This document shows, piece by piece, positions 22,994 through 52,600 of a DNA stretch of 64,000 nt (its first letter is position 1; each line of letters begins with the position of its first letter). The notes beneath the pieces were generated by a model. It worked only from the letters and a program-made list of their open reading frames with translations. It was not told the origin of the DNA and searched no databases. The stretch is from Ceratorhiza oryzae-sativae. Its lineage: Eukaryota > Basidiomycota > Agaricomycetes > Cantharellales > Ceratobasidiaceae. The position numbers and the translations under genes were made by a program. The stretch covers positions 62,001 to 126,000 of the forward strand of contig JARWMV010000012.1 of the NCBI GenBank assembly GCA_030998015.1, in the 5' to 3' direction.

Positions 22994-23607
22994 GTATCAC
23001 TGTAGTAGGTCCAATACCACAGGCAAAAATCATGTTTTTGCTGATCTCTGCACTGCCTGGTTCATAACTCACTGTATATTAGCTCAATCAAGCTATAGTT
23101 TGGCATAGACATTTTTACATATAACACACACCTTAAGTATAAGTATCAAGCTTCAAGACATATTCAGACAGGCTAAGAATTTGTAAGCATACTCTAGATG
23201 TGTGCAAGAAAGGTTTCATGCACTTTATATCAGCAAAAACTGTTAAGAAACAGGCAATTAAGCCCATATCCATCTGTCCTGAGCATTTGAGTGCCAATTC
23301 ACAAAACAAATGGGACAGCAGCCAGTAGTGTCTGGATCTTATCTTGCTGCAGGATTGGACCACTGGTCTGAAATTTTCTGTAGCACATCTCATTGTATGT
23401 AGCTCTACAGTCTACTAATACATGCTCCTCACATTCCGTCTCCCTCGCCTGTTGCAGCCACTTTTCTGTAGTCAAGTTACATGTCCCAGTGGATGTGCAG
23501 CCCACTGTATATGCGCTTCGCTCTTACAAGAAATGTCCAACAAAATGGTTGTGTCGCCCATCAACTCGATATCAAATCGTAGACACATGACATTGGCCTT
23601 TTTATCC
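22994..23607 (-). other. Possible non-LTR retrotransposon scrap, otherwise unassigned
   Basis: On the minus strand around 23500-23380 a frame reads C-x3-C-like, then ETECEEHVLVDCRATY. This resembles the zinc-binding tail found after the reverse transcriptase of LINE-like elements (C ... EDEEHVLF.CP.Y). It is short, has no RT upstream, and is only a suggestion. The rest of the stretch shows nothing. Confidence 0.3.
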
Positions 23608-25502
23608 CTAATGCTCACATAGACTAAACGCGACATTGAAGAACCTTTCATCGTTCTTGGCAACAAATATTTTCCTCTCGTCCATCAACTCCAGCCGATA
23701 TGCATTTGCCTCCTCCCTCGTCATGGTACCTTCAGCCATCGTACTGATACGATCGATCACTTCGGGCGCCAACTTCTCCAATGCGGCCTTCAGCTTCGCA
23801 TTCTCAGCGACCGCGCCTGCCCTCCAGTTTTGTTGCTGAGGAGGAACTTTTGCCGTCGATGGAATCACGATCGCAGGGTCAACCAAAAATAGCGCGACAA
23901 TTTTTCGGTGACCCGGCTTCGTCTTGTCCTTGAGCTCGAATGGCGAGACCCGATGCTGATAGATATTGGGGAAAGCGATCGCTCGGTCTTGGCAGGTCAC
24001 AACGGATCCGAGATCATTGACACATGGGTCGTCTCTTTCGACAGGACGAGTTGAGTAAGCATGTCTAAACAAAGCCAGCCATCATGTCACTGTACCTGGA
24101 TATTCCCCAAGTCAGTGTGCATCCACGTTCGTCGTTCTGCTCGTACGATCCAGGAATAGTTCGAAACGCCAGCCGACTTTCCGTAATGTTCTCCTCGTCA
24201 TAGTAGTAGATCCCCGAGACTGCGATCGACTCATTCGACATGCCTTCGACGTGCCACGAGCCACCATCGTACGTGGGTTTTTCCGGTGTCTGGATTACAT
24301 GTCAAACGAGGAAGTATAAAATATGTGCAATACCGACCAAATGAATGTTGGCGAGCTTGACGATAACCTGTATGGTCTGTCCGGATAGTGAATACCAAAC
24401 GCTCCGTCGTTCCAAACTGCCTGGAGCGTATCCGTCGCCGACATCAGGTAACGAAATTGGCCGGTTCTCGGACCACTCTTCATACAGCCTATCGTATTCA
24501 TCGTCGTTATTCTCGTACTGCCGATAGTCTGGGGCAGGCATGTAGTCATCCTCATAAAAATACCCGTTATTTGTGCGTTCGGGAACGGCAGCGTTCTTGG
24601 GTATGCAGTCTGTGAGAACGCGCTCAAACAGCGGCAAGAACGCGCCGACCAAGCCGTCGATCGCCTTGTGCAGATCTTGGTGGCGTTCAGGGTGAATGTT
24701 GTTGATATAGCACGGGCTTTCGACAGTTTTACCGTCCTTGGAAACTGCAAAGTCGGTTGGCAGCCACTGGAACCTCTGGGAAGTATGGTAGTTCGCGTCC
24801 TGAGCCCATCGCGAGGCCGGTTCGGGCAGTTCGGGTGGCGGGATAGGCTTGAGCGTCGCTGGGTCACGATGGTTGTCTTCATCTGGATATGCCAGAGTAC
24901 GTCCATAGACGACAGGATACAATGATGGGTGGACGAGATCCAGAACCTTTCCGTCCGAGTTCGGGTGCCAGTCTTTTTCCGAGTCGGGTACATTCTCGAG
25001 TTTGGCGACAATCGACTTGAGCTTATTCTTCCAGTCAGTCGGCACGAGACGATCCGACTGCCAGATGCAATCGTAACACGCCACCTTGGTGAAAACCGTG
25101 TCAATCCCTTATAAGGGCGTGAAAAAATAAAACACACCTCGGCGCCACTCTCTTCGTCGCGTAGGCTCACATATCCGTCCAGTTCCTTGAGAACGTAATC
25201 AATATGCGACTCTTTCATGAGCTCAGCCTGCTCGAGTGCCTCTGCACGCCACCTGGCTAGAATCTCCGGGTCGCGGAATTTGGTCCACCAAGATGGTTTA
25301 GAGCGGAGTGCGGCAGAGAGTCGAACCATCTCTAGTTTGACAAGCTATGAGATGGAGGAATTAAATTCATCCGAAAACAAATCGCGCGTTTACGAGGACA
25401 TACGGGTTTGGCAGGCGTTGCGTCATCCCCATCCCAGTCATGATCCTCCGTCTCGCCAAACGGGTTGGGAAGAGGTCCTATCGTTTTCGCTGCGGAAGCC
25501 AT
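23608..25502 (-). CDS. DUF4246 family protein (Fe/2OG-oxygenase-like)
   Basis: A five-exon model gives 557 residues: 25502-25404, 25344-25138, 25084-24338, 24289-24096 and 24034-23608. Introns are 59, 53, 48 and 61 nt, and all joints are in frame. Family landmarks seen: KPSWWTKFRDPEI, KDWHPNSDGKVLDLVHPSLYP, FQWLPTDF, YINNIHPERH, GGSWHVEGMSNE, YYYDEENITESRL, AFPNIYQHRV, and ALFLVDPAI ... STAKVPPQQ near the C-terminus. DUF4246 proteins are widespread in fungi and are thought to have a 2-oxoglutarate/iron oxygenase-like fold (GSWHVEG and HR ... S could bind metal and cosubstrate). No substrate is known. The intron at 24290-24337 starts GTCGGT, an unusual donor. The ATG at 25502 gives the short acidic N-terminus MASAAKTIGPLPNPFGETED. 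Confidence 0.88.
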
Positions 25503-28500
25503 GTGTTTTCGTGCTGGCCTGGAACGGGATCAAGACGCGTTGCTTCGGGGTGATGGTACGTTGAGAAGAGAACGACGCGGTGCGGGTGACGAGGCCGTAC
25601 GTGTTCGCTATCGACACGAGTAGCGTTTACGTTTGGGTTAGCGGGCAGATTGGCAGTGTGGCGTACGCGCTGTGACTGTACGCGTAGCCTGTGCCCGGAG
25701 TGAGGGGTACTGGTCGTCATCGGCTTCCCGCGCTGGTTGTGTCCCCTCGCTCCCAACGCCCCGCTTGCCAGAACTTTTTGTATTAACGCAGCTCAGCTTT
25801 TAACTAGTTGCTGCACTTACCAGGTGCGCCAGGTTTCTTGCGATGGTTGTATAAAGAGCCGTAAGATATGCGCCAGATACATCAGGAAAAGGAGCCGCGT
25901 CTGATTGGCTCTAAACAGCACATTGAGCAGGTCGAGGGCCCCGAAATGAAAGCCGCAATCGTTACGACTTTCCAGAGCTCATCAGAGCTCGGCCGGCACG
26001 GGTCAGAATCGGACTCCGATGTCATTTAGTTGGAAACTGAGTGATATCCAGATATGCATATCGAAGTCTGCTATTGGCAAGTGGTTTTGTGGCAGTGAAT
26101 CAAGGTGTTTGCATTACTCATCAATATCTGGAACTACCGGGGCGTTTTGAAATGGTTTTGGTTGCAGTATATCCGCAAACGAAAACTACCTCCACGTACA
26201 GGTGAGACGCCTCTCAGTCGTACGTAATGCACCATGTTCGTCAGTAACTTTGCATGGGTGCGATGGCTACGTTGAGGCAAACAGATCAAATCGACCCCAC
26301 TCCAGCGAGCAAGTGCAGGAGGTGTGGCAAGTGGAGGCACACGTCGCCCTGATCATTCAGCTGATAAGCCAGGCTGCGATAATACGCATGTATGAACTGC
26401 GTCCATAAAATGTTCCTATATGACCAATCCTGGCTTCGTAGCCTAGACACCTATTCTTTCACTCTGAGAATTTCATTAGATCGGCTTATATTTGAGATTA
26501 TCTGTTTATTCGTGACTTGTATTGATTGGAGGAGCCTGTGTGCGAAATGTTTGGGGTGGATAACATTTTGCACGTAGGCTCGCTATGAAAGGTTACCGTA
26601 GATTTTACATTGTTTCTATTCCGAGTCCGTGCCATTCTGGGAGTGATGGATAAAACTCTCCAGGTGGACGGACGACAGGTTCCCGAGATAAAGGGGTATA
26701 CCATCACCAGGTTTTAGGCAGTAGATGGTTACATGTATGGAGGAATGGACTTGCCTTGAACAAGGTCTCTCAATTATTTCAAACGCTTAATTGATATCTG
26801 CCTATACATAATATATATTATAAAGGAAGTTATTGAAATCAGGGCGAGCAGTTATGACGCAGAACGTTGATGGGATGTCAAGAAATCAGACATCGGGATA
26901 TTATGCAAACATCTGAACGAATTATATGACCTTTCCGGGTGAACATATTAAGCATTCGCTTTTACTATTCTCTACGCACCACGATTGCTGTAATACGAAC
27001 GGTTGGTAATAGGACGGAGCAAACCCAGGGTGACAAATCCACAGCGCAAGCTGTTTCGTTCAAGTCAAATTTGTGTTCTGCGCCACCACCGTGCACCTAC
27101 TATGCCAGACCGCTGTTGGTGCAACTCTTAACCTCTCGCGCCGAAATCCAAAAAGAGTAAATCTGATAATACCGCGACCACGACGAAGGTCAAAAGCGCA
27201 AAGAGTGCCCGACAACTCTTGACGCGTTCGCCAGTGCCCAGGATACGATTCGGAAAACGTTCGCTTCGCCTGATTCATTCGAACTCTGCAATAACGATGC
27301 TGAAATAGAAGGGCTGATAGTGAGTGTCTCGGACTAGGACAAGAGCTTTGCAGGCAGTGTAGCTGATGCCGGAACCACCGTTCAACCTGACCCTCCACCC
27401 AAACCATCTCAAAAGATCACATCCGGGGCGAGTCGTATTGACACAAAGATCAATAGCTGCATCATGGAGCAGTGAGGATGCACCTTTTGAATTATTTGCC
27501 CCAATTCGATACACGTTGACGACAAACTGGAATCCATTGCGAACGACCATCCCGGAGGACGGATCACCGTTCACGTTCGAAGATATTTTTGTCTGACCCA
27601 CGAGTATTTGGCGCATTGTTCAAGCTGGACCGGCCACGGGTGTGTGAGTCATACGAGTTTACGTGCGACGAGTTTTGCGGGATGATGGGAAAGGTCAAAA
27701 ACGCTTCAAGGCAAGGATTTCATCTGGGGTTCTGGGGGGGGGGGTTCCCCACATGACATGCTCGGGGACAAGACGCTCTCATTCTTGCAAAGGACACCAA
27801 GATAAAACGGAAGGAGATGGCGGAGTTTACCATCAGGCGAAAATATAGGGTCAGGCTGGGACCGCCCATTGGGTTGCCTCCTGTGTAATAATTGACCACC
27901 GAGTTAACAATGGATCAACCCTCCATTCTCTTGCTGTTTTTACTACATGCATCGCGGCACTGTCTATCACGATGGTATATTGAACCACGGAAGTGGACTT
28001 GACTCGACGTCAACCACCAATCATCGTATCCTAGTGGCCGTATCGAACCTAGCATGCCCAATCACGGTAGTATCTCAACACGTTCCTCTGCCATAACGTG
28101 TGAAGACAACTAAAATACTTGTTTGGTGCATTTGCGAATTCAATGTCAAAGGGGTAGTCTTGGAAGTTAGGTCCTTGAAGAGGCTGTTTGTGTTCTCGGA
28201 GGATGCTGATGTGGGGCGCGGCACGGTGACGAGAATGTGAACTTACGCACAGGTTGCTCTCGCCAGAAACTCTGACCAGATTAGGCACGACCAGCACGTC
28301 CAAACAAGTCGAGACGGAGACCGAGGCTGACGCTGGCGATTGCCAACCGTGGAATCTCGGTGCCTGCCACTGGAGATATATTCGTCATCGACGAAGGGGT
28401 ATCAAATCTCGATCGACCCGGCGCCGATCATGGATCGAGATCGTTGTTTACGGGGGCGCCGCGCCTCGTCCGGCGGCAGATCGTGGGGTCGATTGAAACC

Positions 28501-31620: not shown

Positions 31621-34600
31621 CTACTCAGGCGTGATACCCTGAATCTATTCCGCCGGGTTAACAGAAAGTCAGAGAATGTGCCATCCATTGCCAACAGTCC
31701 TTACCACCCAAGCAACCTGCGATGCGGTTGGCCGCGCGCTCGGCTCATAGCTCCAACACCACCGGAGTACACCAAGCATAATCGTAGCTTTTGGAGACGT
31801 TGTGTCTCCTTCGAGTAAAGGTACCTGAGGGACTCGACGTTTGTCTACGACCTCCGCGATAAGCCGGTACCCTTGAGTGATCTCCTTGAACGGAACTTCC
31901 CCCGTAATAATCTCCTGCATCAGATTTAGCTTGAGACAAGCCGATACGCGAATACATTCTCACAAGCATTGTCTAACCGTGTTGTATACACGTCAGCAAC
32001 TATGTTGGCCACGAATCTCGAATGGCTCACCATTCCCATCGCATATATGTCAGCCTCGCGTGATCGTTGAGCGTTCTCTTGATGAAGCTCTGGCGCCTGA
32101 GTCCGCATGCACAAAATTGAGCTCGTCGTAGGTAACTGCACTAGTTAAACCCACCATCCAGCGCAGCGTGCCTCCTCCTGGATCGGTCTGAGAAAACTCC
32201 AACACCTTGTCGTGCATGATTGCGAGCCCAAAGTCCGTAAGCTTGAGCGTGCCGTCTCCGTCCACAAGAAGGTTAGCCTGTTCGCGCTGTGTTACTGGTC
32301 CGACAGTTATCGTATCAAGCGTTACCCACTCCTTTGATGTCACCATGAGCCTCGACGAGTTTTACGTCAGGAACAACGGTGCGTGAAGCGAGACAATAGA
32401 AACCTACTACATTCTCTCCATGCAGGTACGTGATCGCCTGAGCCAGTTGTAGACACTAGAGTGTGGTCAACACAATGCTGCTAGGCTGATTGGGCATAGA
32501 GCTCATATCCATACCATAGGGAACCGCTTTATATCCGGCCACTTCCGAAGTACCTCGCACACGCTGCCATATGCCATCCACGGAGATACCATTGCCAGAC
32601 AGTTCTGAAATATCGCTAGACCATCGAGTGCGAGTATGTTCCTATGCTTCATCTTTGACCAAACGTTCAGTTCACGAGCAGTGCGCTGTGTGCAAGTAGA
32701 AGTAAAATAGTACCGAGTAGGTGTACGTGACACTTGGTTGTGCGTACTTTAACTTCCTTGTTGTCGCGTTGCCTCAGACACTTGACTGCCACTTGCCGCT
32801 CGTCAGAGATCATGATGCAGTAAACGTCGGACAGAGCGGTACGTGCGACGGCTGGAGCTATGGGACTCGCTGAGCTAGGCAGAATCTCTGTGAGGTCAGC
32901 AATCTGTGAGTGGGTAGCTAGGTAATGAACGACCGTCGAAAGTGGCTATTAGCAATGGATAAAAATCAGGTTAATCATTTCGAAGAAATATACAGTAACC
33001 CTACTGTATCGGCGTCGATATGGATTGGTTTCTTCCGGCCAGGGTGTTCATGAAAGAACTGTGAAGGAAGAGCACGCCTCAGGATCGTGTATGGAAGGCA
33101 AACTAATAAAATCTTACTGCCTGTCGTTCGTTCCCCAGACACTTAAGCGGTATACTTTGAGTGAGATCTAAAACTCACCTATGTACGCGCATGGTAGGCT
33201 GGTAAAAGTCTCATTCTACATAGCCGTTATGTACTTACTTCCTGCACGCCAAGGCATGTCAACGTGAAACCTGTGTGACGAGAAGAGTACTTACGATCTG
33301 AATGGATTGTGAGACGTGGGTTAGAGCGTGGGAGCATGAGGGGGTTGAGCGCACATACCTCCTAGTGCGCCGAGATACGAGACTGTCAAATGGCGATATG
33401 ATATCTACTTACGGCCTTCATAAATGGTCGCAATCAGAGGTGCAACCGATTTGTAGTGGCATGTGACGCACCAGCTAGGGAAACATACTGTCAGGACGTG
33501 ATTAGAAAGCAGCTATTGCCGATAGAGTACTCACTGTCTGTCAGAAATTAGTTTAGGGATTGATGCATGTGGATAGATGATCCGAACCATCTGGATTCAG
33601 TGAGGCAAAGCAACAATAAGCATCAGGGACAAGAGGACCACGAGGGGTACTATGAGAATGAGTGGGAGACTTACCTGCCAAGGGATGAGTGGCAGGAACG
33701 AGAGCAGGGGAAACAAGGTAGAGGCATGAGTTGATATTTTGACTGCAGCCCCTACTGACACTACGGGCATGTGAATAGATATGGCAGATTGGGAACAAGA
33801 GTAAGAAAAGTGTTACACTCACTACCTATTATAGAAAGTATAGTGTGAATGGCCAAGTGAGAATGATTGGGTTGCAAAGATCTGTGCCTACAGGTTTCTT
33901 GAGAGAAATTCAGCTGCAGGCTGTCTGGTCAGATGCACACATTGTGGACATACATGCTTTATTTGCCCAGATTGAATGAGAAGCTCAGAGAAATTGGTAG
34001 AACCTAGATAATACTCACATTCTAGAAGGCAGGGTGGGCAAGGATCTGTAATGAGTTACAATTATAGGATTTAATATGGTAGTGACCCACAAACTGGAGG
34101 CAAGCAAAGTGTGGAAGGTTAAAAGAGAGAATCAATATTTTGATATGTGACATACCTCCTTGATGTGGTAGTGTGGGGATGATGTGGTCAGAGTATGGCC
34201 ATGGCTGTGTTTTGCTCACTCACATCCTGACATGCAACAGAGTGAGAGGGGTGTGGTCAGAGTATGCCATGGCTGTGTCTTGTTCACTCACCCGCTGACA
34301 TGCAACAGAGTGAGAGGGGTGTGGTCAGAGTATGCCATGACTGTGTCTTGTTCACTCACATCCTGACATGCAACAGAGTGAGAGGGGTGTGGTCAGAGCA
34401 TGCCATGGCTGTGTCTTATTCACTCACAATCTGACATGCAACAGAGTGAGATGGGTGTGGTCAGAGTATGCCATGGCTGTGTCTTGTTCACTCACATCCT
34501 GACATGCAACAGAGTGAGAGGGGTGTGGTCAGAGTATGCCATGGCTGTGTCTTGTTCACTCACATCCTGACATGCAACAGAGTGAGAGGGGTGTGGTCAG

Positions 34601-36069
34601 AGTATGACATGGCTGTATCTTGTTCCCTCACAATCTGACATGCAACAGAGTGAGAGGGGTGTGGTCAGAGTATGCCATGGCTGTGTCTTGTTCACTCACC
34701 AGCTGACATGCAACAGAGTGAGAGGAGTGTGGTCAGAGTATGCCATGGCCATGTCTTGTTCACTCACAAACTGACATGCAACAGAGTGAGAGGGGTGTGG
34801 TCAGAGTATGCCATGGCTGTGTTTTGTTTACTCACCCACTGACATGCAACAGAGTGAGAGGGTTGGTGTGAGAGAGTGTACTAGTAACCAATACCACTTG
34901 CTTACAGGCTATATTTTGTTATGCATGCAGTTCGCAAATAAGCACATCTACAACACCGTTTCATTGTTTACAATTTTGCAGGCGATTTTCATACTCTGCT
35001 CACACTCACCTTCGGGTGAATACTCCGTTCACGTGTCCATGACCACCACTCACATGCCGCTTTTCGACCATGTATCCGCTAGTTCAGCGCTCCTCCATTT
35101 GCACAGCTCAATGACCCACATACCTGCTTTATGCTTATCGTTAGATGTTCAGCCAATTTCATTGTGTGATACTTTGGCGCACCTTCTGCAGTGAAGCGTT
35201 TAATCCAGGAATAAGATACTGCACAACAACCACTCGATCACTCACCAACTAGATTGCGCAATTAATTTTTCGATCAGCGCGCCCTCATGGCGACTCCCTG
35301 AAATCAAACTTGCCACCTAGCATCCAATCCGGGTGTCATTAGCTTCACAGTAGATTGAAAGATGTGCAACGTACCCATCGTCCGATTTCCCCTCGTATTT
35401 CGGACTGATGAATCACGGAACGAGGCCACATGGGACCACGTATGAGATCCCCACTCGGACTCATGGGTCTGGACACTCACTCGCCCCTTGATCTCGTCAT
35501 GCTCCTGTGCAAGGCGCAGTTAGCGCCGGTTTCCGTTGTAATGATGCATCTCACTTCCTAGAACATAGTCAGAGCTCTCAGTCTCACCAGGCTAGGGTCA
35601 GCCGTAGTCTGTGCGTACCGCAATTTGCCCAAAGTTGACGTAGTTCCACCCTCCTTCGGACATAGTGTCGCTCGTCCTGTCGTGGTGCGGGGCACACTCT
35701 GTATCACGAGGTTGTATTTGATCCAGCTGTTGCGTTACGTTGTTAGCAAGCTTGTGAGTTCTCAAGCGCCATGCCTCATTCCGCAACCCGACGTTCTTTC
35801 CCCCCGTTTGCACCATCACCCCGTTCATTCCTCTATCCTCAGAGAAGGCAGGGCGCACTCCACGAGACAGAAGGGGATCAAACCTTGGGCATTGTCGAAC
35901 AAGGTAGGAATGCTGACTTTTTTCCCCCCTGCAGCTGCTGTCCATAGTCGAATGCTCCTGTCAAGCCCAGTCCGTTGACTGTCACCGCCATCAGCGAAAT
36001 TCTCTGTCTGACAGATACCTGGGGCGGCGTTGAATCTCGTCTATCAGCGGGTGTTTTGAAGTCTTCCAT
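31621..36069 (-). CDS. Protein kinase with an in-frame micro-exon tract
   Basis: Kinase exons: 32945-32748, 32685-32515, 32455-32408, 32350-32330, 32277-32155, 32096-32031, 31972-31964 (9 nt, TML), 31914-31705 and 31644-31621. Motifs: QVAVKCL (Lys of subdomain II), ELNVWSKMKHRNIL, AHGDIKGAN (HRD variant), DFGLA, APE after a splice, and SARPTASQV. This is a tyrosine-kinase-like fungal kinase. The usual glycine-rich loop is replaced by AVARTALSDVY. Upstream come 33058-33005 (FFHEHPGRKKP), the micro-exon tract (33118-35557), 35726-35619 (ending WNYVNFGQIA) and exon 1, 36069-35884 (MEDFKTPADRRDS). With every exon the product is 470 residues, and every exon is a multiple of 3 in phase 0. Kinase exons are firm; the order of the N-terminal part needs transcripts. 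A 3-nt exon AAC at 35795-35793 is possible. Confidence 0.8.
33118..35557 (-). other. Micro-exon tract of the kinase gene (29 exons of 3 nt)
   Basis: Predicted exons, 5' to 3' on the minus strand: GAA 35557-55; GGGCGA 35486-81; 30 nt 35404-375; GGA 35297-95; TTG 35248-46; AAG 35185-83; CAG 35126-24; CGGCAT 35059-54; 24 nt 34995-72; CCT 34908-06; TGG 34838-36; TTT 34770-68; CTG 34702-00; ATT 34634-32; GAT 34566-64; GAT 34498-96; ATT 34430-28; GAT 34362-60; CGG 34294-92; GAT 34226-24; GAG 34158-56; TTT 34093-91; AAT 34021-19; CAT 33956-54; AAACCT 33897-92; GTA 33825-23; 24 nt 33674-51; ATG 33590-88; ACA 33537-35; CTG 33474-72; GCC 33415-13; GAG 33361-59; ATC 33297-95; GAA 33241-39; 12 nt 33198-87; GCA 33120-18. 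Most are flanked by CAG, TAG or AAG before and GTGAGT, GTAAGT or GTATGT after, with introns of 40-80 nt. Weak donors: GGA, ATG, AAACCT, the two 24-nt exons and the 12-nt exon. These were chosen partly because they keep the frame. Confidence 0.7.
34183..34862 (-). repeat. 68-bp minisatellite, ten units, each intron plus one codon
   Basis: Units start at 34183 and every 68 bases after (34251, 34319 and so on to 34795). On the minus strand each unit reads GTGAGTG, then CTCTGAC (branch-like), then GCATGTCAG, then three bases. Those three bases differ between units (TGG, TTT, CTG, ATT, GAT, GAT, ATT, GAT, CGG, GAT in gene order) while the other 65 are nearly constant. The length 68 is not a multiple of 3, so the unit cannot encode a repeat protein without splicing. 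Confidence 0.92.
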
Positions 36070-39689: not shown

Positions 39690-40521
39690 CTGACATTAGA
39701 GGCGCCAAACGCTTGGAGGTAAATCTTGGCGCCAAAGTAAATTATGACGACATTTGAATCCCGAATTAGGGGTATTAGAATATCGAAGGGCCGATGGGTG
39801 CTTCTTTAACTAGTGAAGGGGAACTAATTAAATGAGATTACGGAAATGGGGCTCACAGCTCCAAGGTTGATCGAATATGAGCCGCTGAGCTTCTGGTGTG
39901 ACAATTAGATCTCGCGGGTTCGGTTTGAGACAATCTGGTGGCACTGAATTATAATACAATTTGTGCAATTGGGGTTGACCATCACTTCACACTGCGGCCG
40001 CACTAAAAGCATAATGGTGCTTTGCGAATACTCTGCTTCGGGTTCTGAAAACCAGACCCGAGACAGTGGCATGGTAATTCCATGCCAGCGGAGTAGCATG
40101 AGTGTTCGAGATTTCCAACCCCCGGGTGGGCAATACCACACCCCCTGTTGAGTGCATACACGGTATTATTACCAGGATAGTAGATAAGTAAGACATCAAC
40201 AGCATACACTCGGTGAGAGCAAGAAACTGGTAGTATATCACTTTAAGATAGAATAAGCAAAATAAAAATAAACATAGCTCTTGTTGATGGGGGGTAATGG
40301 GGTGATGGGAAGGAATGCAGTAATGTTCTGCATCATCATGTTATGGAAGGCAATATGATACTGAGAATGGGCCAAGGGGTGTGGGCATGCATTGGGGGAC
40401 TGCAAGTAAGCTACATGGTTTGAAGTGTGAATGAGAGATGAACAAGTACACACAGCCAGTTCCAGGCCTGGTCAAACTAATCTGGGTCTACAGTATTGTC
40501 AAGTACATCCATGGGACCAAT
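39690..40521 (-). other. Old repeat flank of E4
   Basis: The right end (about 40440-40521) is the downstream half of a frame whose upstream half lies beyond E4 at 54931-55109. Joined across the CCAAT target it continues ...TVIG into PMDVLDNTVDPD*. The rest, up to about 39900, is CpG-poor and shows no gene. Confidence 0.5.
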
Positions 40522-41824
40522 TGTTACGGGTCAGGGTACACTTGAATATCTAGAGCTTAAGCAAATGTAGATATGTTAGTATACACTAATCGTACTCAAT
40601 ACTTCTTAGACTAGAGTAAGAAGGCTCAAGGTAGTTGCAATGTGATCAAGTAACACTCAAGGTAGTCTTAATCTTTCACAGTGTAAACTGACTAATTTAT
40701 AGGTATAAAGAGCAAGACTACTATGGTCAGGTTCCCTTAGATATCTTAAATGTAGTTCAGCCCTAGTTGCTTGGACTAACTGATACTAATCTTAATACTA
40801 GGCTTAAGCGATAGCTTATAGGATAGATGGTGGGCTGCCTAATGCGTGTACTTCCTCAGCTACAGGTACTTAGATTTCCTCTAATAGCTGGTACTTAATG
40901 TCACGCTCAATCAGGCAATATTGTATCCTTATATATCTCTGTATATAAGATACAATGTCACAGTATATAACTAATATGGTACTTTATTCCTCAGTACTAG
41001 TTATATAAGAAATCACACACAGACAAGAGAAATAGAAAGAGAAAAAGAAACCAATAACTGGTCTGGGTTGAGTAGTAGAAGGGAGGTGGTCTGGAAGGGC
41101 CTCAGAGGAGGTCCTTTTATACCCTGAGGAGGGCATTCCAGAGCCAAATAGATACATGCATGCCAGTGCATCATCAAAAGAGGGTACTGCTATACTTGGG
41201 GTACACCCTAGCCCAGTATAGGATAAAAGAGTAAAGACAGGGTGTGGATCGAAGGCATTGATGCATCTGAGACCTGCTATTGGCTTGTAGATCATATTAT
41301 CATAGTATATACATGTAATGAATGGAGGCTACATCTCAGTGAGTCATAAAGTGAGTCAGAGAAGCTTCTGGATCAATTTGGGAAGCTCTCCTGACTCACT
41401 GGAGTCATTAGATCTTGATTGATGGTCCAGTAAGATTCTAATGATCTTCGGGCCATTCCGGCGCGAGGATCCGGTGGATCGCGACGATCTTCGGGCAGCA
41501 GATACCGCCGAAGATTGGCTATCGATAGAGCACAAGATCGCTTTGATAGCGTAAGCGGTTGCCGAGATATGAGCGGTGCGATGTTGTAATCAATATCTCC
41601 TGATAAGAGGAAATATCGCAACCTCTGTATCTCTCTGAGATCTTATCGTAAAAACTTAATAAAATATGCGTTGGAGAGCGGGAAATTTGTACTATTTAAT
41701 GGAACGAAAATAGTACAAATCAGAGCGCATACAAATTCAAGTATTTCACAATTTAATTACAGAGGCATCGCTTGAGGTTGGCAGAGCAGACTAAAATAAT
41801 AGAAAATGTTAGTGATCCATAACA
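40522..41824 (-). repeat. 3' LTR of E4 (1303 bp)
   Basis: Minus-strand start TGTTATGGATCACTAACATT, preceded by the purine run GGGGGGGCTA (41825-41836). It ends GACCCGTAACA. The first 20 bases contain TGTTA ... TAACA as an inverted repeat. Confidence 0.95.
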
Positions 41825-41836
41825 TAGCCCCCCCAG
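41825..41836 (-). promoter_or_regulatory. Polypurine tract of E4
   Basis: Minus-strand GGGGGGGCTA directly before the 3' LTR. Confidence 0.75.
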
Positions 41837-41855
41837 TCTGGTATGTCAACTCACA

Positions 41856-42909
41856 TTAGAGAGAATCATATCCCTCATCATCAGAGCTGATGTAAATGTG
41901 CTCCCTTTCCTTTCCTTTGTTACTAAGACAAGGTTCAGGAGTACTGGGAGGTGAAGGAGGGCAGGAGCCACTGAGAGTCTCAGAATCTGAATCTTCATCT
42001 CCAAAAGAAGGCTCAGGGCTCATAGAAGGTTCTGCAGCCTCAGAGGCTTTATCCCCAAAGAAAATTCTAAGGCGAGCATTAAGCTTCTTATCCTTCTGCC
42101 CTGCCCACCATTCTTCATATTTAGCCTTAGCTGTCCTATGAGAATATTCCTCTGATAGGGCCACCAAGTAGCGCTAATTAAGAGTCAATAAATGCAGAAA
42201 GCATGAACTAGGAGATGCTTACTACATCGTTTCCCCAAACCGCAGGGACTCCATCATCTGCAGGCAACTCCCAGCTCCCATAAGGGTGTTCAAGCAAATA
42301 CTTGTCCCAGGTGCACTGGGCAAAAGCTAGAATCCCACAGGGCACAGGAGGAAGCTCCAGCAAGTGTCCTTCATCTGGAACAAGCCCCTTAGAGCGAGCC
42401 AGATGGTTCAAGGCACTCAGCATGTGATTGCCCCAGATTTGGAGACGAACTACTGTGTAGATCAGGTCAGAGAAGGAATCAAAAGGCTCATGCCAGTCCT
42501 GGATGTGGAAACCCTTTTCTGGCTCTAGAGGGTATGCAATATTTGCCACCCTAAATTGCGCATACAGAGGTGAGTCCACTCCAAAGCTGTTCAAAACCTC
42601 AGCCTTCTTAAGGCCTCCATCATTGCAGAAAGTGGCAACACAGTCGCGCACTTGCAATAGAGCATCAGTAAGAGCATGAATAGTCTGGTCACTTAGGTAC
42701 CAGCCATCCTTATACCAGCTCTGACCTACACTGTGCTGTACTTCAATGCCCTCCCTGAACTTGCGCTCAAGGATGGATGGGCTACTGAAAAACTTACTCT
42801 CCCCTTGACGCATGACACTGGCAAACACATGGAAGTGCTTGCAGGACAGGATCGAGTTGATGCTGGCCATAATCTGGACATCATTCAACATGAAGGGAGG
42901 AGTCTGCAT
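41856..42909 (-). CDS. E4 extra gene Y (334 aa, one intron)
   Basis: Exon 1 is 42909-42223. The intron is 42174-42222 (49 nt, GTAAGC ... TTAG). Exon 2 is 42173-41856. The joint WGNDV/RYLVALSEEY is in frame. The first two thirds look globular (SINSILSCKHFHVFASVMRQ, YKDGWYLSDQTIHALTDALL, WDKYLLEHPYGSWELP). The C-terminus is charged, Ser/Asp/Pro-rich and possibly phosphorylated (YISSDDEGYDSL at the end). I recognise no family. It is the last gene before the 3' LTR, where retroviruses keep env or accessory genes, but it has no signal peptide. An apparent intron inside an LTR element implies the genomic RNA must partly avoid splicing. Confidence 0.7.
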
Positions 42910-49620: not shown

Positions 49621-52600
49621 AAAAATCCGAGTCAGAAGAAGAGCTAGAAGAATCAGATTCTTCCTCTTGGTCTTCAGATGGCTCAGTTTCAGATGATTCA
49701 GGATCATAATCATTGCAGGCAGCTTCATATTCAGCATAAGCAGTTTGTTCAGCTTCAATAGTTTCAGCAAAATAAACTTGGACATTGTTAGCATTAGATT
49801 TACTATGCTTGCACTCCTTGTCATAGTGCATAAGACTTCCACAATGAATACAGCCTCTCATTCCTCTAGCTTTAGGAGTCCCTTTCTTATGTTTGGAAAC
49901 ATTAGAATTGTCTGGAGGGAAGGGCCTCTTATAGCCATTGAATTTATCAGGCTGCTTTGACTTGAACTTAGAGTTAGAAGAATTTACTGCATGAGCACTA
50001 GCTTTGTGACCATGCTTTTTCTGATGCTTTTCAGCCTTCAAAGCTTTGATCACTTCCTTGACTGTGTCATAGGTAGCTTGGTTGTTCATATGGTGAGGCC
50101 AATCTTGCAATAAGTCTTCTTGTTCCTTAATTCTAGTCACATAGGTGGACCAGTCTGCAATATCCTCATGGTTGACTATAGTTCTCCATTGTGTAGGAGC
50201 TGACCTAGCCACTTCAGCAATGATAGTGAGGTCATCCCAATCTTCAACCATGTCAAGCAGTTTCTTTTTGCGAAGTGCATACTGAACTGGTGTTTCTTTA
50301 TTGTTGCCTGAATCCTTGAACCTGGCTGCCAAAGCTTTGTTCCTAGCCTTGGTAATCCAAGTAGGAGTCCAAAAGAAACTAATTAAGCGAGCTCTCATCT
50401 GATTCCAATCTGTAGACATTCTAAGCCTTTGTTCCTCATTGAACTGATACCACCATTGTTTAGCATCTCCAGTAAACCTGAATGGGATAGTCAGGGTGAG
50501 TCTGTTGTTCTCATTTAAACCCATGGCTATATAACGACTGATTTGGTCTATCCATTCATATAGTTCATCTGGATCGCCATCATACTCTGGTATCACTTCA
50601 GGCTTTAATTTCATGTCTAGATGAGGTCGATTATTTTGGTTGTTATTGTTACCATTTCCTCCAGCTCCTCTAGGGCCTTCTGGGCCTGGTGGACCTGGTG
50701 GACCTTGTGGACCATCTCTTCCATCCCTGCCATCCCTTCCAGGGGGACCTTGGTCTCCTGGACGTCCTGGAGGGCCTTGAATCCAAGGATAAGGACCATT
50801 AGGAGGATTTCCAGGGGGCCCTGGAGGTCCAGGTGGTCCTGGTGGTCCTGGTAGTCCTTGTGGCCTAGGAGTGTTGGGTGGAATAGGTGGAATGGGAGGA
50901 ATATGAGGAATATGTCCTCCTCCTTGCTGAGGGTAACTTTGACCTACTGGAGGGTTAGGTGGCCCCTGTCCTCCTCCTGGAGGATTAGGTGGACCTGCAC
51001 TTCCTCCTGAGAAATTTCTGCCACTAGAGGCAGGAGGTCCAGTGGGAGGAGGTCCTGGTGGCCTCCTAGGTGGAGTAGAAGCCAGACCAGAGAATCCTGG
51101 TCCTAGATTTATCACAAAGGGTTGATAAGGATCAAACCTCTGAGTTCTAAATGTTTCAGCTTCAGTAGGTCTAGAGGCTTGTGGCATGTGTATGCTAGCA
51201 TCAGCAGGTAATTGTGACTGAGGTACTAATGGCTGGAAACCTAATAAGGTATTCCCTTCAGGACTATAAACTGGCATCTTTGAAGGATCTCCAGTCATAG
51301 TTACAGAAGGTCCAGTAGGTTCTCTAAAACCTTCAGCCCTATGATCTTCTGTAGGCCTACCTGCTTCAGCATCTGAAGTTCTATTAGAACTCCTATGCCT
51401 AGGTCTCCTAGCTTCTTCCTCAGAAGAGTCTTCTTCACTAGTAGTAACAATAAGGGGAACAGCTCCTTGAGGGACAGTCCCAGAGTCATCCCTTACTGGC
51501 CTAGAAGGGGTTATTGGCTCCCTAGGTGGGTAAGGAGATGCTGGTCTTCCAGTATACTGTTCATGAGGTGGAAACTCTTCCTCAATAGTGACTGCATGAC
51601 CTTTGCTAAGTCGACCCCTGAAAGGTTCCTTTCTAATAGCATTGTCAAAGGATTGACGTGGTCTAGTAGGTTTATTTACCAAGGGAGAGTCCTGGTCCTG
51701 ATCAGTATCATCCTCATTTACTTCTCCAATAGTGGGTAAAGCTGAAGTACCAGCTTCAGTCACTTGAGCAGGAGGTAATAGAGGTTCTAGCACTCTTCCT
51801 GATTGCCTAGGACCTACTCCTATGCGTCTAGGATAGTCTTTCTCTACAGGAGTAAATGAAGTTCCTAGATAACTTTCCAAGTAAGTAGAAGGACCTCTAA
51901 CTCCCAGAATGCGAGTAGCTTCTATTTGAGAAACTGATTCTGGAGTAAATAGAGCTTGTAGTCTCTTCTCACTTGGAGTCCTTATAGGAGTAATTGCACC
52001 TAAAGCTTCTGGTCTAGCTGGAGAACTAGTTACAGGGCCAAGGAAGCTCCTTCCCTGAGCCATAGCTGAAGTAGATGCAAATCCAGAAGGTTGAATTGCA
52101 GTCATGGTAGTATCCTCAGCAGAATCATCTGCTATCCTTGTGATATCTTCCACTTCCTGCTCTTCTATTTGAACTAGCTCCTCTCCACCACTCACTGGCT
52201 CATCTGGATCCTCCTGAACTTCTAGAGGTTTGAATTCTAGACGACCAGTAGGAGATCTAATTGAGTCAATAGTATGCTTAGGATGAGGGGCTGGAGCATA
52301 TTCTGGAGTCTTGGATCTGCTCTCAGAATTTTCCCACATTATTTCATTGAGCTCCCTTTGCTTCCCTTTACCAAGGTCTTGCATAGCTTGGTGTTCAATA
52401 AAGAGGTAAGCCAAAAAGCGCTCAACTTCATCCCTGAATAATACACAAGCAACTTCATGCTGTTTCTTACTGAAAGCAAAATGCTTCCTAGTTTCAGGGA
52501 ATGCAGGAACATCTGGGTGAGGTATAGGATGCCTGCTCCTAACAGGGAGTAGTTGGGACTTGAAAGCAGAGAGCTTAGTCCTAAAACTCCTATGCCTGTT

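Follow-up and report, generated by a model that had tools for sequence, protein, structure and literature searches.

In a 64,000-nt stretch of the genome of Ceratorhiza oryzae-sativae (contig JARWMV010000012.1, positions 62,001 to 126,000; hereafter the window), we analysed a protein kinase gene on the minus strand in which a series of single codons, each enclosed by an acceptor and a donor splice site, separates a short 5' coding region from the kinase domain. These AG|NNN|GT units follow one another from 33118 to 35557 with a spacing of mostly 50-70 nt, as the initial annotation of this DNA had proposed. Judged from the sequence, the codon cassettes are very probably spliced serially and would produce a hypervariable segment beside the kinase. 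This reading is supported by the specificity for a length of 3 nt, the phase, the conservation of AG and GT, the absence of stop codons and the recurrence of such series elsewhere in the genome, in other kinase genes. A gene model, picked by hand among chains in which all exon lengths are multiples of 3, has 43 exons, 29 of which measure 3 nt. Every exon has a length divisible by 3 and is in phase 0, and the product, of 371 residues, is free of internal stops, in keeping with the earlier proposal that the series joins the N-terminal exons to the kinase domain in frame; the proposed count of about 36 micro-exons was somewhat too high.

Splice sites were scored with one fixed set of weights, set by hand, at strict, middle and loose thresholds. 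The strict thresholds yielded 18 units of 3 nt between 33040 and 35640, compared with 4 for all other lengths from 0 to 15 nt together (two of length 0, one of 4 and one of 7), and with the loose ones, applied to 32500-36000, there were 25 units of 3 nt, while the remaining lengths (0-15 nt) added 13. At the middle thresholds, the 22 units of 3 nt in 33040-35640 were far above the chance level given by 500 dinucleotide shuffles (mean 0.26, maximum 3). The part downstream of a tandem repeat described below contributed 9 of these units (shuffles: mean 0.09, maximum 2). The part upstream of it contributed only 2, a number that was reached by 3 of the 500 shuffles, and contained 2 units of length 4 alongside; the evidence for the upstream codon exons is therefore weaker. 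Over the whole window, 3-nt units numbered 19 on the minus strand, 18 of them in the kinase gene, and 3 on the plus strand, while other lengths gave 0-7 units per strand. Searching the window with the simple pattern YAGNNNGTRNGT gave 22 matches, where the mean was 6.9 and the largest value 14. When a dynamic-programming chain was allowed any exon length from 1 to 45 nt, exons of exactly 3 nt made up 26 of 33 in the window gene, 31 of 39, 41 of 52 and 33 of 40 in three further copies of the locus (called C12b, C47 and C251 after their contigs), and 27 of 32 in a related gene on contig C15.

The same preference was apparent genome-wide. Two successive occurrences of YAG-3nt-GTRAGT were found 151 times, compared with 18 for the reversed pattern, whereas the double pattern with 4 nt gave 1 match (0 reversed) and that with 6 nt followed by 3 nt gave none (1 reversed). 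Among the matches listed (100 of the 151), the contigs concerned were C12, C15, C23, C24, C39 and C47. Stop codons were absent from all 215 clean 3-nt units (68 + 65 + 22 + 10 tandem and 18 + 32 non-tandem ones, irregular units being excluded), while 8.9 were expected from shuffling the codon columns within the sets, a test that is inexact because the units are related by duplication and hence not independent.

We considered the possibility that the series is a minisatellite carrying decoy splice sites within one or a few long introns, the codons never being exons. A tandem repeat is indeed present and irregular units exist in some arrays. Yet the C15 series comprises about 30 units whose introns display no similarity to one another (self-BLAST, E 0.01), with no unit of any other length from 0 to 9 nt at the middle thresholds; the splice dinucleotides compared among the four copies are invariant (72 of 72 sites), none of the 215 clean units is a stop, and the same layout is common to three different repeat units. 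Furthermore, an intron of 2.3 kb would be far beyond the 49-76 nt measured by 38 of the 42 modelled introns. We therefore regard this explanation as very unlikely. A related idea is that the AG|NNN|GT sites serve the recursive, stepwise removal of a long intron, inclusion of the codons being incidental. It would account for zero-length AG|GT sites at 35009, 33674 and 33178, the last of which splits an intron of 118 nt into 60 + 58 nt, and for those at 35182 and 35123, which overlap codon exons. Recursive splicing does not need a constant 3-nt spacer, however, and leaves the stop-free, hypervariable codons unexplained, and we consider it highly improbable.

Serial splicing of single codons is also suggested by a feature absent from the initial annotation. 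The interval 34183-34862 is a tandem array of ten copies of a 68-nt cassette, in which a constant 65-nt intron accompanies a hypervariable codon (TGG TTT CTG ATT GAT GAT ATT GAT CGG GAT). The sequence CTCTGTTGCATGTCAGNNNGTGAGT has 64 exact matches in the genome, all within four arrays, namely at the window locus, in C12b (at 44 kb on C12), in C47 and in C251. One letter-identical intron of 65 nt was present in 49 of the 62 complete units and bore 10 different codons. Nucleotide diversity over the 62 units amounted to 0.72, 0.75 and 0.49 at the three codon positions and to a mean of 0.010 in the intron, a value that may be an underestimate as assembly polishing could have smoothed the introns. 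The ratio of codon to intron diversity was thus 63, compared with 18 in an array on C24, and the 68-nt array consists of near-identical repeats with few hypervariable positions. No association between codon and intron variants was detected in a linkage disequilibrium test. Strong diversifying selection combined with homogenised introns, or a local mutation of the codons, may be at the origin of codon change on a constant intron. Outside the tandem array, comparison of 18 codon exons in the four copies revealed variation at 0 of 72 sites in splice dinucleotides, 7 of 54 sites in codons and 95 of 1485 other intron sites, indicating that the core splice sites are kept while the codons change. The upstream codons that differ among the copies are TTG/TAT, CAG/CGG/CGA and CCT/CAT.

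The four copies, on three contigs, agree in their layout and differ in the number and order of their cassettes. Read as amino acids, the regular units spell WFLIDDIDRD in the window, DWIWARAARWAARLARD in C251, HRDRWIIWRDAWIIW in C12b and DDADDILDDLWWTAAATADDWDWDWL in C47. The flanking sequence at 26000-27500 of the window is 97% identical to that of C251 over its whole length but only 79% identical, over two thirds of it, to those of C47 and of the other C12 copy, so that the copies probably represent two loci on two haplotypes. Over the 900 nt that precede the array, identity reaches 99.0% between the window and C251 and 96.1% between C12b and C47, although the codon strings within each pair are unlike. 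The kinase parts pair differently (window-C251, 93.7%; window-C47, 97.3%), which suggests exchange between the loci. Two cassettes in these copies were altered. In C12b (L039 reversed, ~3796), TGTTGG replaces TGTCAG, the acceptor being lost and CAG standing directly before the donor. In C47, at ~33.34-33.51 kb (L042 5344-5511), a 167-nt insert splits the donor site of a codon cassette; with its inverted ends CTCGGCCAAAA and a probable duplication of TA, it resembles a small transposon.

Series of single-codon units were also found in other kinase genes of this genome. A second array, on C24, consists of 79 units of ~62 nt, and a third, of at least 32 units of ~107 nt, lies on C250 and has its counterpart on C66; both precede a kinase domain. 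With up to 2 mismatches allowed, all 74 matches of the 62-nt unit fell on C24, and all 55 matches of the 107-nt unit fell on C66 and C250. No copy of any of the three units was found in the genome outside its own arrays at the mismatch limits used (none for the 68-nt unit, 2 for the others), which would miss more diverged copies. The introns of the 62- and 107-nt units differ from that of the 68-nt unit. We had supposed the three units to be unrelated, an idea that was dropped since their alignments exceed those of shuffled sequences: the 62- and 68-nt units align with a score of 14 (maximum of 6 in 300 letter shuffles, none reaching it), the score of the 62- and 107-nt units was reached by 0 of 300 shuffles, and that of the 107- and 68-nt units by 4. 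The units are different but may not be of independent origin. A pattern of period 4 in codon identity in the C24 array was also rejected, as its significance vanished when the irregular units were retained as gaps. Of note, the C250 region 23201-27150 (L058) apparently encodes two tandem kinase domains, the first with GFG in place of DFG, when read by eye.

The gene on C15 contains 28-31 codon exons, and near copies of it on C39 and C61 keep the series. At the strict thresholds, 3-nt units numbered 28 and those of any other length 4; at the middle ones there were 30 of 3 nt, where shuffles averaged 0.22. Its first exons, read by eye, resemble those of the window gene, and in both genes the series stands between an exon with GxW and one with F[FL]xxHP. 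Just before the latter, the seven final codons of the series translate as T L A E I E A (window) and D S S E M E D (C15), and at both shared E positions the codons differ by a silent base only, an agreement that is suggestive. As to the extent of the phenomenon, we sampled eight kinase flanks from 141 kinase matches: one was the known copy on C61, C250 contained a series of 12, C236 a single unit, and five none. Two units were present near a kinase match on C23. Within this large family of kinases, the feature thus occurs in few members.

How could such a gene work? A cassette comprises acceptor, codon and donor and then an intron, in most cases 50-70 nt long. The introns would be recognised by intron definition and not across the exon, and their removal would join the codons in phase 0. 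Because each unit is one codon in phase 0, cassettes could be gained, lost or skipped without a shift of the frame. Near-identical introns would be a substrate for unequal exchange, leading to changes in the length of the segment, and ageing cassettes would lose their intron similarity to become non-repeated codon exons such as those flanking the window array and those in C15. The segment would thus be a stretch beside the kinase that changes rapidly. It may form a recognition surface, putatively for non-self recognition or allorecognition, of which the kinase would be the output; such a role is the most likely one that we can propose.

The codons might alternatively be used in combinations, each mRNA taking a different in-frame subset so that one gene would provide a repertoire of segments. 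Any subset stays in frame because the units are of 3 nt and in phase 0, and skipping would tolerate both the 167-nt donor insert of C47 and the lost acceptor of C12b; alternative splicing is, moreover, reported to diversify the NACHT-ANK proteins of truffles in the available portions of the corresponding papers (PMC4986451, PMC9815663, PMC3689799, PMC10197012). The strong and uniform sites of the tandem units suggest constitutive inclusion, however, and codon differences between haplotypes already supply diversity. This alternative is quite plausible on the sequence, though we lean slightly against it. A more far-reaching proposal, which we make tentatively and consider rather unlikely, is that the array is a dedicated generator of diversity. 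Either local hypermutation or extreme diversifying selection would change the codon where it stands while the intron is kept identical, and combinatorial in-frame splicing would multiply the germline diversity. A fungal individual would then possess a repertoire of segments for recognition, set residue by residue and linked to kinases.

Several observations weigh against the serial splicing of codons as we have presented it. Among the remaining exons of the free-length chains, some shift the frame or contain stops. Four of the modelled introns are long (118, 128, 145 and 232 nt). Splice sites are weak in several units, namely at 35316 (GC donor), 33590 (donor GTTCGG), 35126 and 33956 (AAG acceptors) and in the 6-nt exon at 35059-35054. 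Positions adjoining the core dinucleotides (-3 and +3 to +6) varied at 7 of 90 sites among the four copies, no less than the introns. The three repeat units may not have arisen independently, as they are more alike than shuffled sequences, partly via shared splice signals. A protein search with the conceptual N-terminus of C15 (residues 1-110) returned 23 candidates, none at E <= 1. Lastly, irregular units occur in C24 (14 of 79), C250 (10 of 32), C66 (6 of the 16 that the acceptor pattern caught), C12b (1 of 16) and C47 (a single one), and one in C24 starts with TAG before a damaged donor. If they are real rather than errors in the consensus, full inclusion would break the frames.

Irregular units of 0-2 nt, as seen in C24, C250 and C66, could also indicate that the arrays are assembly artefacts or decaying pseudogenes, as they look like sites at which reads disagreed on the codon. 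Most of the length changes affect the codon or its edge and few the intron, and consensus errors are likely since leftovers such as GA, TC and CA are the residue of two existing codons that disagree at one base. The window array is, however, devoid of irregular units, its layout is shared by the four copies on three contigs, the VAVK, HGD, DFG and APE motifs are intact, and C15, C39 and C61 retain their series. An artefact or a pseudogene is accordingly hardly credible, and we retain serial splicing of the codons.

The modelled gene starts with the coding exon MSEGGWNYVNFGQIA (35619-35663), similar by eye to the start of the C15 paralogue, MDWNKFYFGRF. It is followed by a 3-nt exon GAA (35555-35557, in the context tag|GAA|gtgaga), a 24-nt exon encoding EHDEIKGR (35481-35504; GHESVKGN in C15, by eye) and a 30-nt exon encoding SEIRGEIGRW (35375-35404; RNIRPILGEW in C15, by eye), the last before the codon series. 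The upstream non-tandem codon exons, which derive from the chain, the model and the four-copy comparison, span 34906-35316 and are GTG (35316), TTG (35248), AAG (35185), CAG (35126) and CCT (34908), with a tentative 6-nt exon, CGGCAT, at 35059-35054. Beyond the tandem array, the downstream codon exons span 33118-34158 and are backed by the shuffles as well; given by their first base, they are GAG 34158, TTT 34093, AAT 34021, CAT 33956, GTA 33825, ATG 33590, ACA 33537, CTG 33474, GCC 33415, GAG 33361, ATC 33297, GAA 33241 and GCA 33120. The 118-nt intron lies at 33121-33238, and the site within it at 33178 reads AG|GTGAGT, its role in dividing the intron being putative; those at 35009 and 33674 lie inside the introns of 145 and 232 nt. 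These codon-free sites may be emptied cassettes. The first exon after the series is the 54-nt exon FFHEHPGRKKPIHIDADT (33005-33058), for which FFREHPELS and similar sequences occur in Ceratobasidium proteins. The kinase domain (31621-32945), delineated by Pfam, homologues and the model, is encoded by exons 32945-32748, 32685-32515, 32455-32408, 32350-32330, 32277-32155, 32096-32031, 31972-31964, 31914-31705 and 31644-31621. The seventh of these is the 9-nt micro-exon ACAATGCTT recognised in the initial annotation; it encodes TML, which is contiguous in homologues such as P0002 and P0004.

For searches with Pfam and for homologues, the query was the window kinase protein without the 14-residue stretch PLSTVVHYLATHSQ and without the serial-codon residues. 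It matched PF00069 (4.9e-40) and PF07714 (1e-38), and Pfam returned kinase-type families only; neither NACHT and ankyrin domains nor WD40, ANK or TPR repeats were found with this query. In the three other genes the scan covered the kinase pieces only. The catalytic motifs of kinases, VAVK, HGD (here HGDIKG), DFG and APE, are intact in the gene model, and the gene is predicted to encode an active-looking protein kinase. Among the relatives listed by name for the kinase part, nearly all are from Ceratobasidium and Rhizoctonia, the best being 54-68% identical, and one is from Jaapia, which makes an origin in the Ceratobasidiaceae probable; a scan of viral contigs for relatives found none. Four of 24 related proteins start exactly at the FF exon and four more have at most 10 residues before it. 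As gene finders likely skip such exons and these 8 of 24 relatives begin at or near the FF exon, the feature may be wider than it appears and have gone unseen. One relative, P0032, comes from a contig of 1338 nt; it is a kinase of 343 aa, and its domain reads without intron remnants. Before the FF or FL exon it has ELNEIAK-FFESHP, where the window model has TLAEIEA-FFHEHP and C15 DSSEMED-FLRTHP. We had taken it as transcript evidence for inclusion of the codons, but dropped this since only 3 of 7 residues match and its origin from a transcript is unproved; the resemblance is suggestive. A protein search with residues 1-80 of P0032 retrieved P0032 alone.

Other repeats were noted in the window. 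The stretch 26000-26435 belongs to a family of copies that are ~74-85% similar, with a 49-nt end found inverted beside many of them, like a small inverted-repeat transposon. Upstream of the kinase locus, 40500-42000 is a high-copy element and, since most of its 47 matches (from 40 scored candidates) are 94-99% identical, probably a young one. A 95-nt duplication lies at 1277-1462, and a stretch of 9-30 nt repeats at 50681-51009.

The micro-exon genes of schistosomes contain serial, very short symmetrical exons and give variable products, which are secreted. Their exons are mostly of 6-36 nt, according to the initial annotation, whereas 29 of the 43 modelled exons are of 3 nt here, in a kinase gene. 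Introners, or introner-like elements, are near-identical introns present in large numbers in many unrelated genes; the present introns are also near-identical, but at the mismatch limits given above the three repeat units did not occur outside their own arrays. Splicing of a 3-bp exon is shown to be feasible by Drosophila homothorax, which has a single one and no series, according to the available part of the report (PMC7392893). Available portions of other papers describe a functional micro-exon in Trichoderma Xlr2 (PMC11121469) and mention 3 bp exons for Ophiostoma mitochondria (PMC12308204). Arrays of repeats with high internal similarity are described in fungal NLR genes and, as far as the accessible text goes, share with the present ones near-identical repeats, few hypervariable positions and changes in length by unequal exchange; there, however, the repeat is coding (WD-repeats and similar), whereas here it is almost all intron with one coding codon (PMC9815663). 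The 68-nt unit, an intron plus one codon, thus does not encode a WD40, ANK or TPR repeat.

The closest parallel is found in truffles, and Iotti et al. reportedly described in 2012 nank genes with 3-bp mini-exons in Tuber melanosporum. In the literature that we searched on single-codon exons in fungi, kinases and Ceratobasidium, which covers few subscription journals, the only serial case was that of truffles. The truffle NACHT-ANK (nank) genes contain, in the portions of the papers available, tens of codon-sized 3-bp exons subject to alternative splicing, so that the remark in the initial annotation that no fungal gene built from serial 3-nt exons was known does not hold (PMC4986451, PMC9815663, PMC3689799, PMC10197012). 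By these partial descriptions, on which the truffle side of the comparison rests, both systems are fungal genes with tens of exons of exactly 3 bp, as modelled in the window gene, in an expanded family of putative recognition proteins with a varying recognition region. By its anatomy, the window gene would work like the truffle genes, though it is not a member of their family, since no NACHT or ankyrin domain was found in it. The truffle genes encode NACHT-ANK receptors of an ascomycete and, as described, derive their diversity from alternative splicing; here the product is a predicted kinase of a probable relative of Ceratobasidium, the codons are hypervariable in the DNA itself and the cassettes are tandemly amplified. 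If our reading is correct, each unit of exon plus intron that is gained or lost would lengthen or shorten the protein by exactly one amino acid, the smallest possible unit of repeat-based protein variation, and the handling of serial 3-nt exons by the spliceosome, the diversification of codons on identical introns and non-self recognition in fungi would become testable in these genes. A second and distant fungal lineage would then make a variable protein segment from single-codon exons, upstream of kinases, and what appears to be new with respect to truffles, as far as sequence can tell, is the association with kinases, the tandem cassettes and the decoupling of codon from intron.

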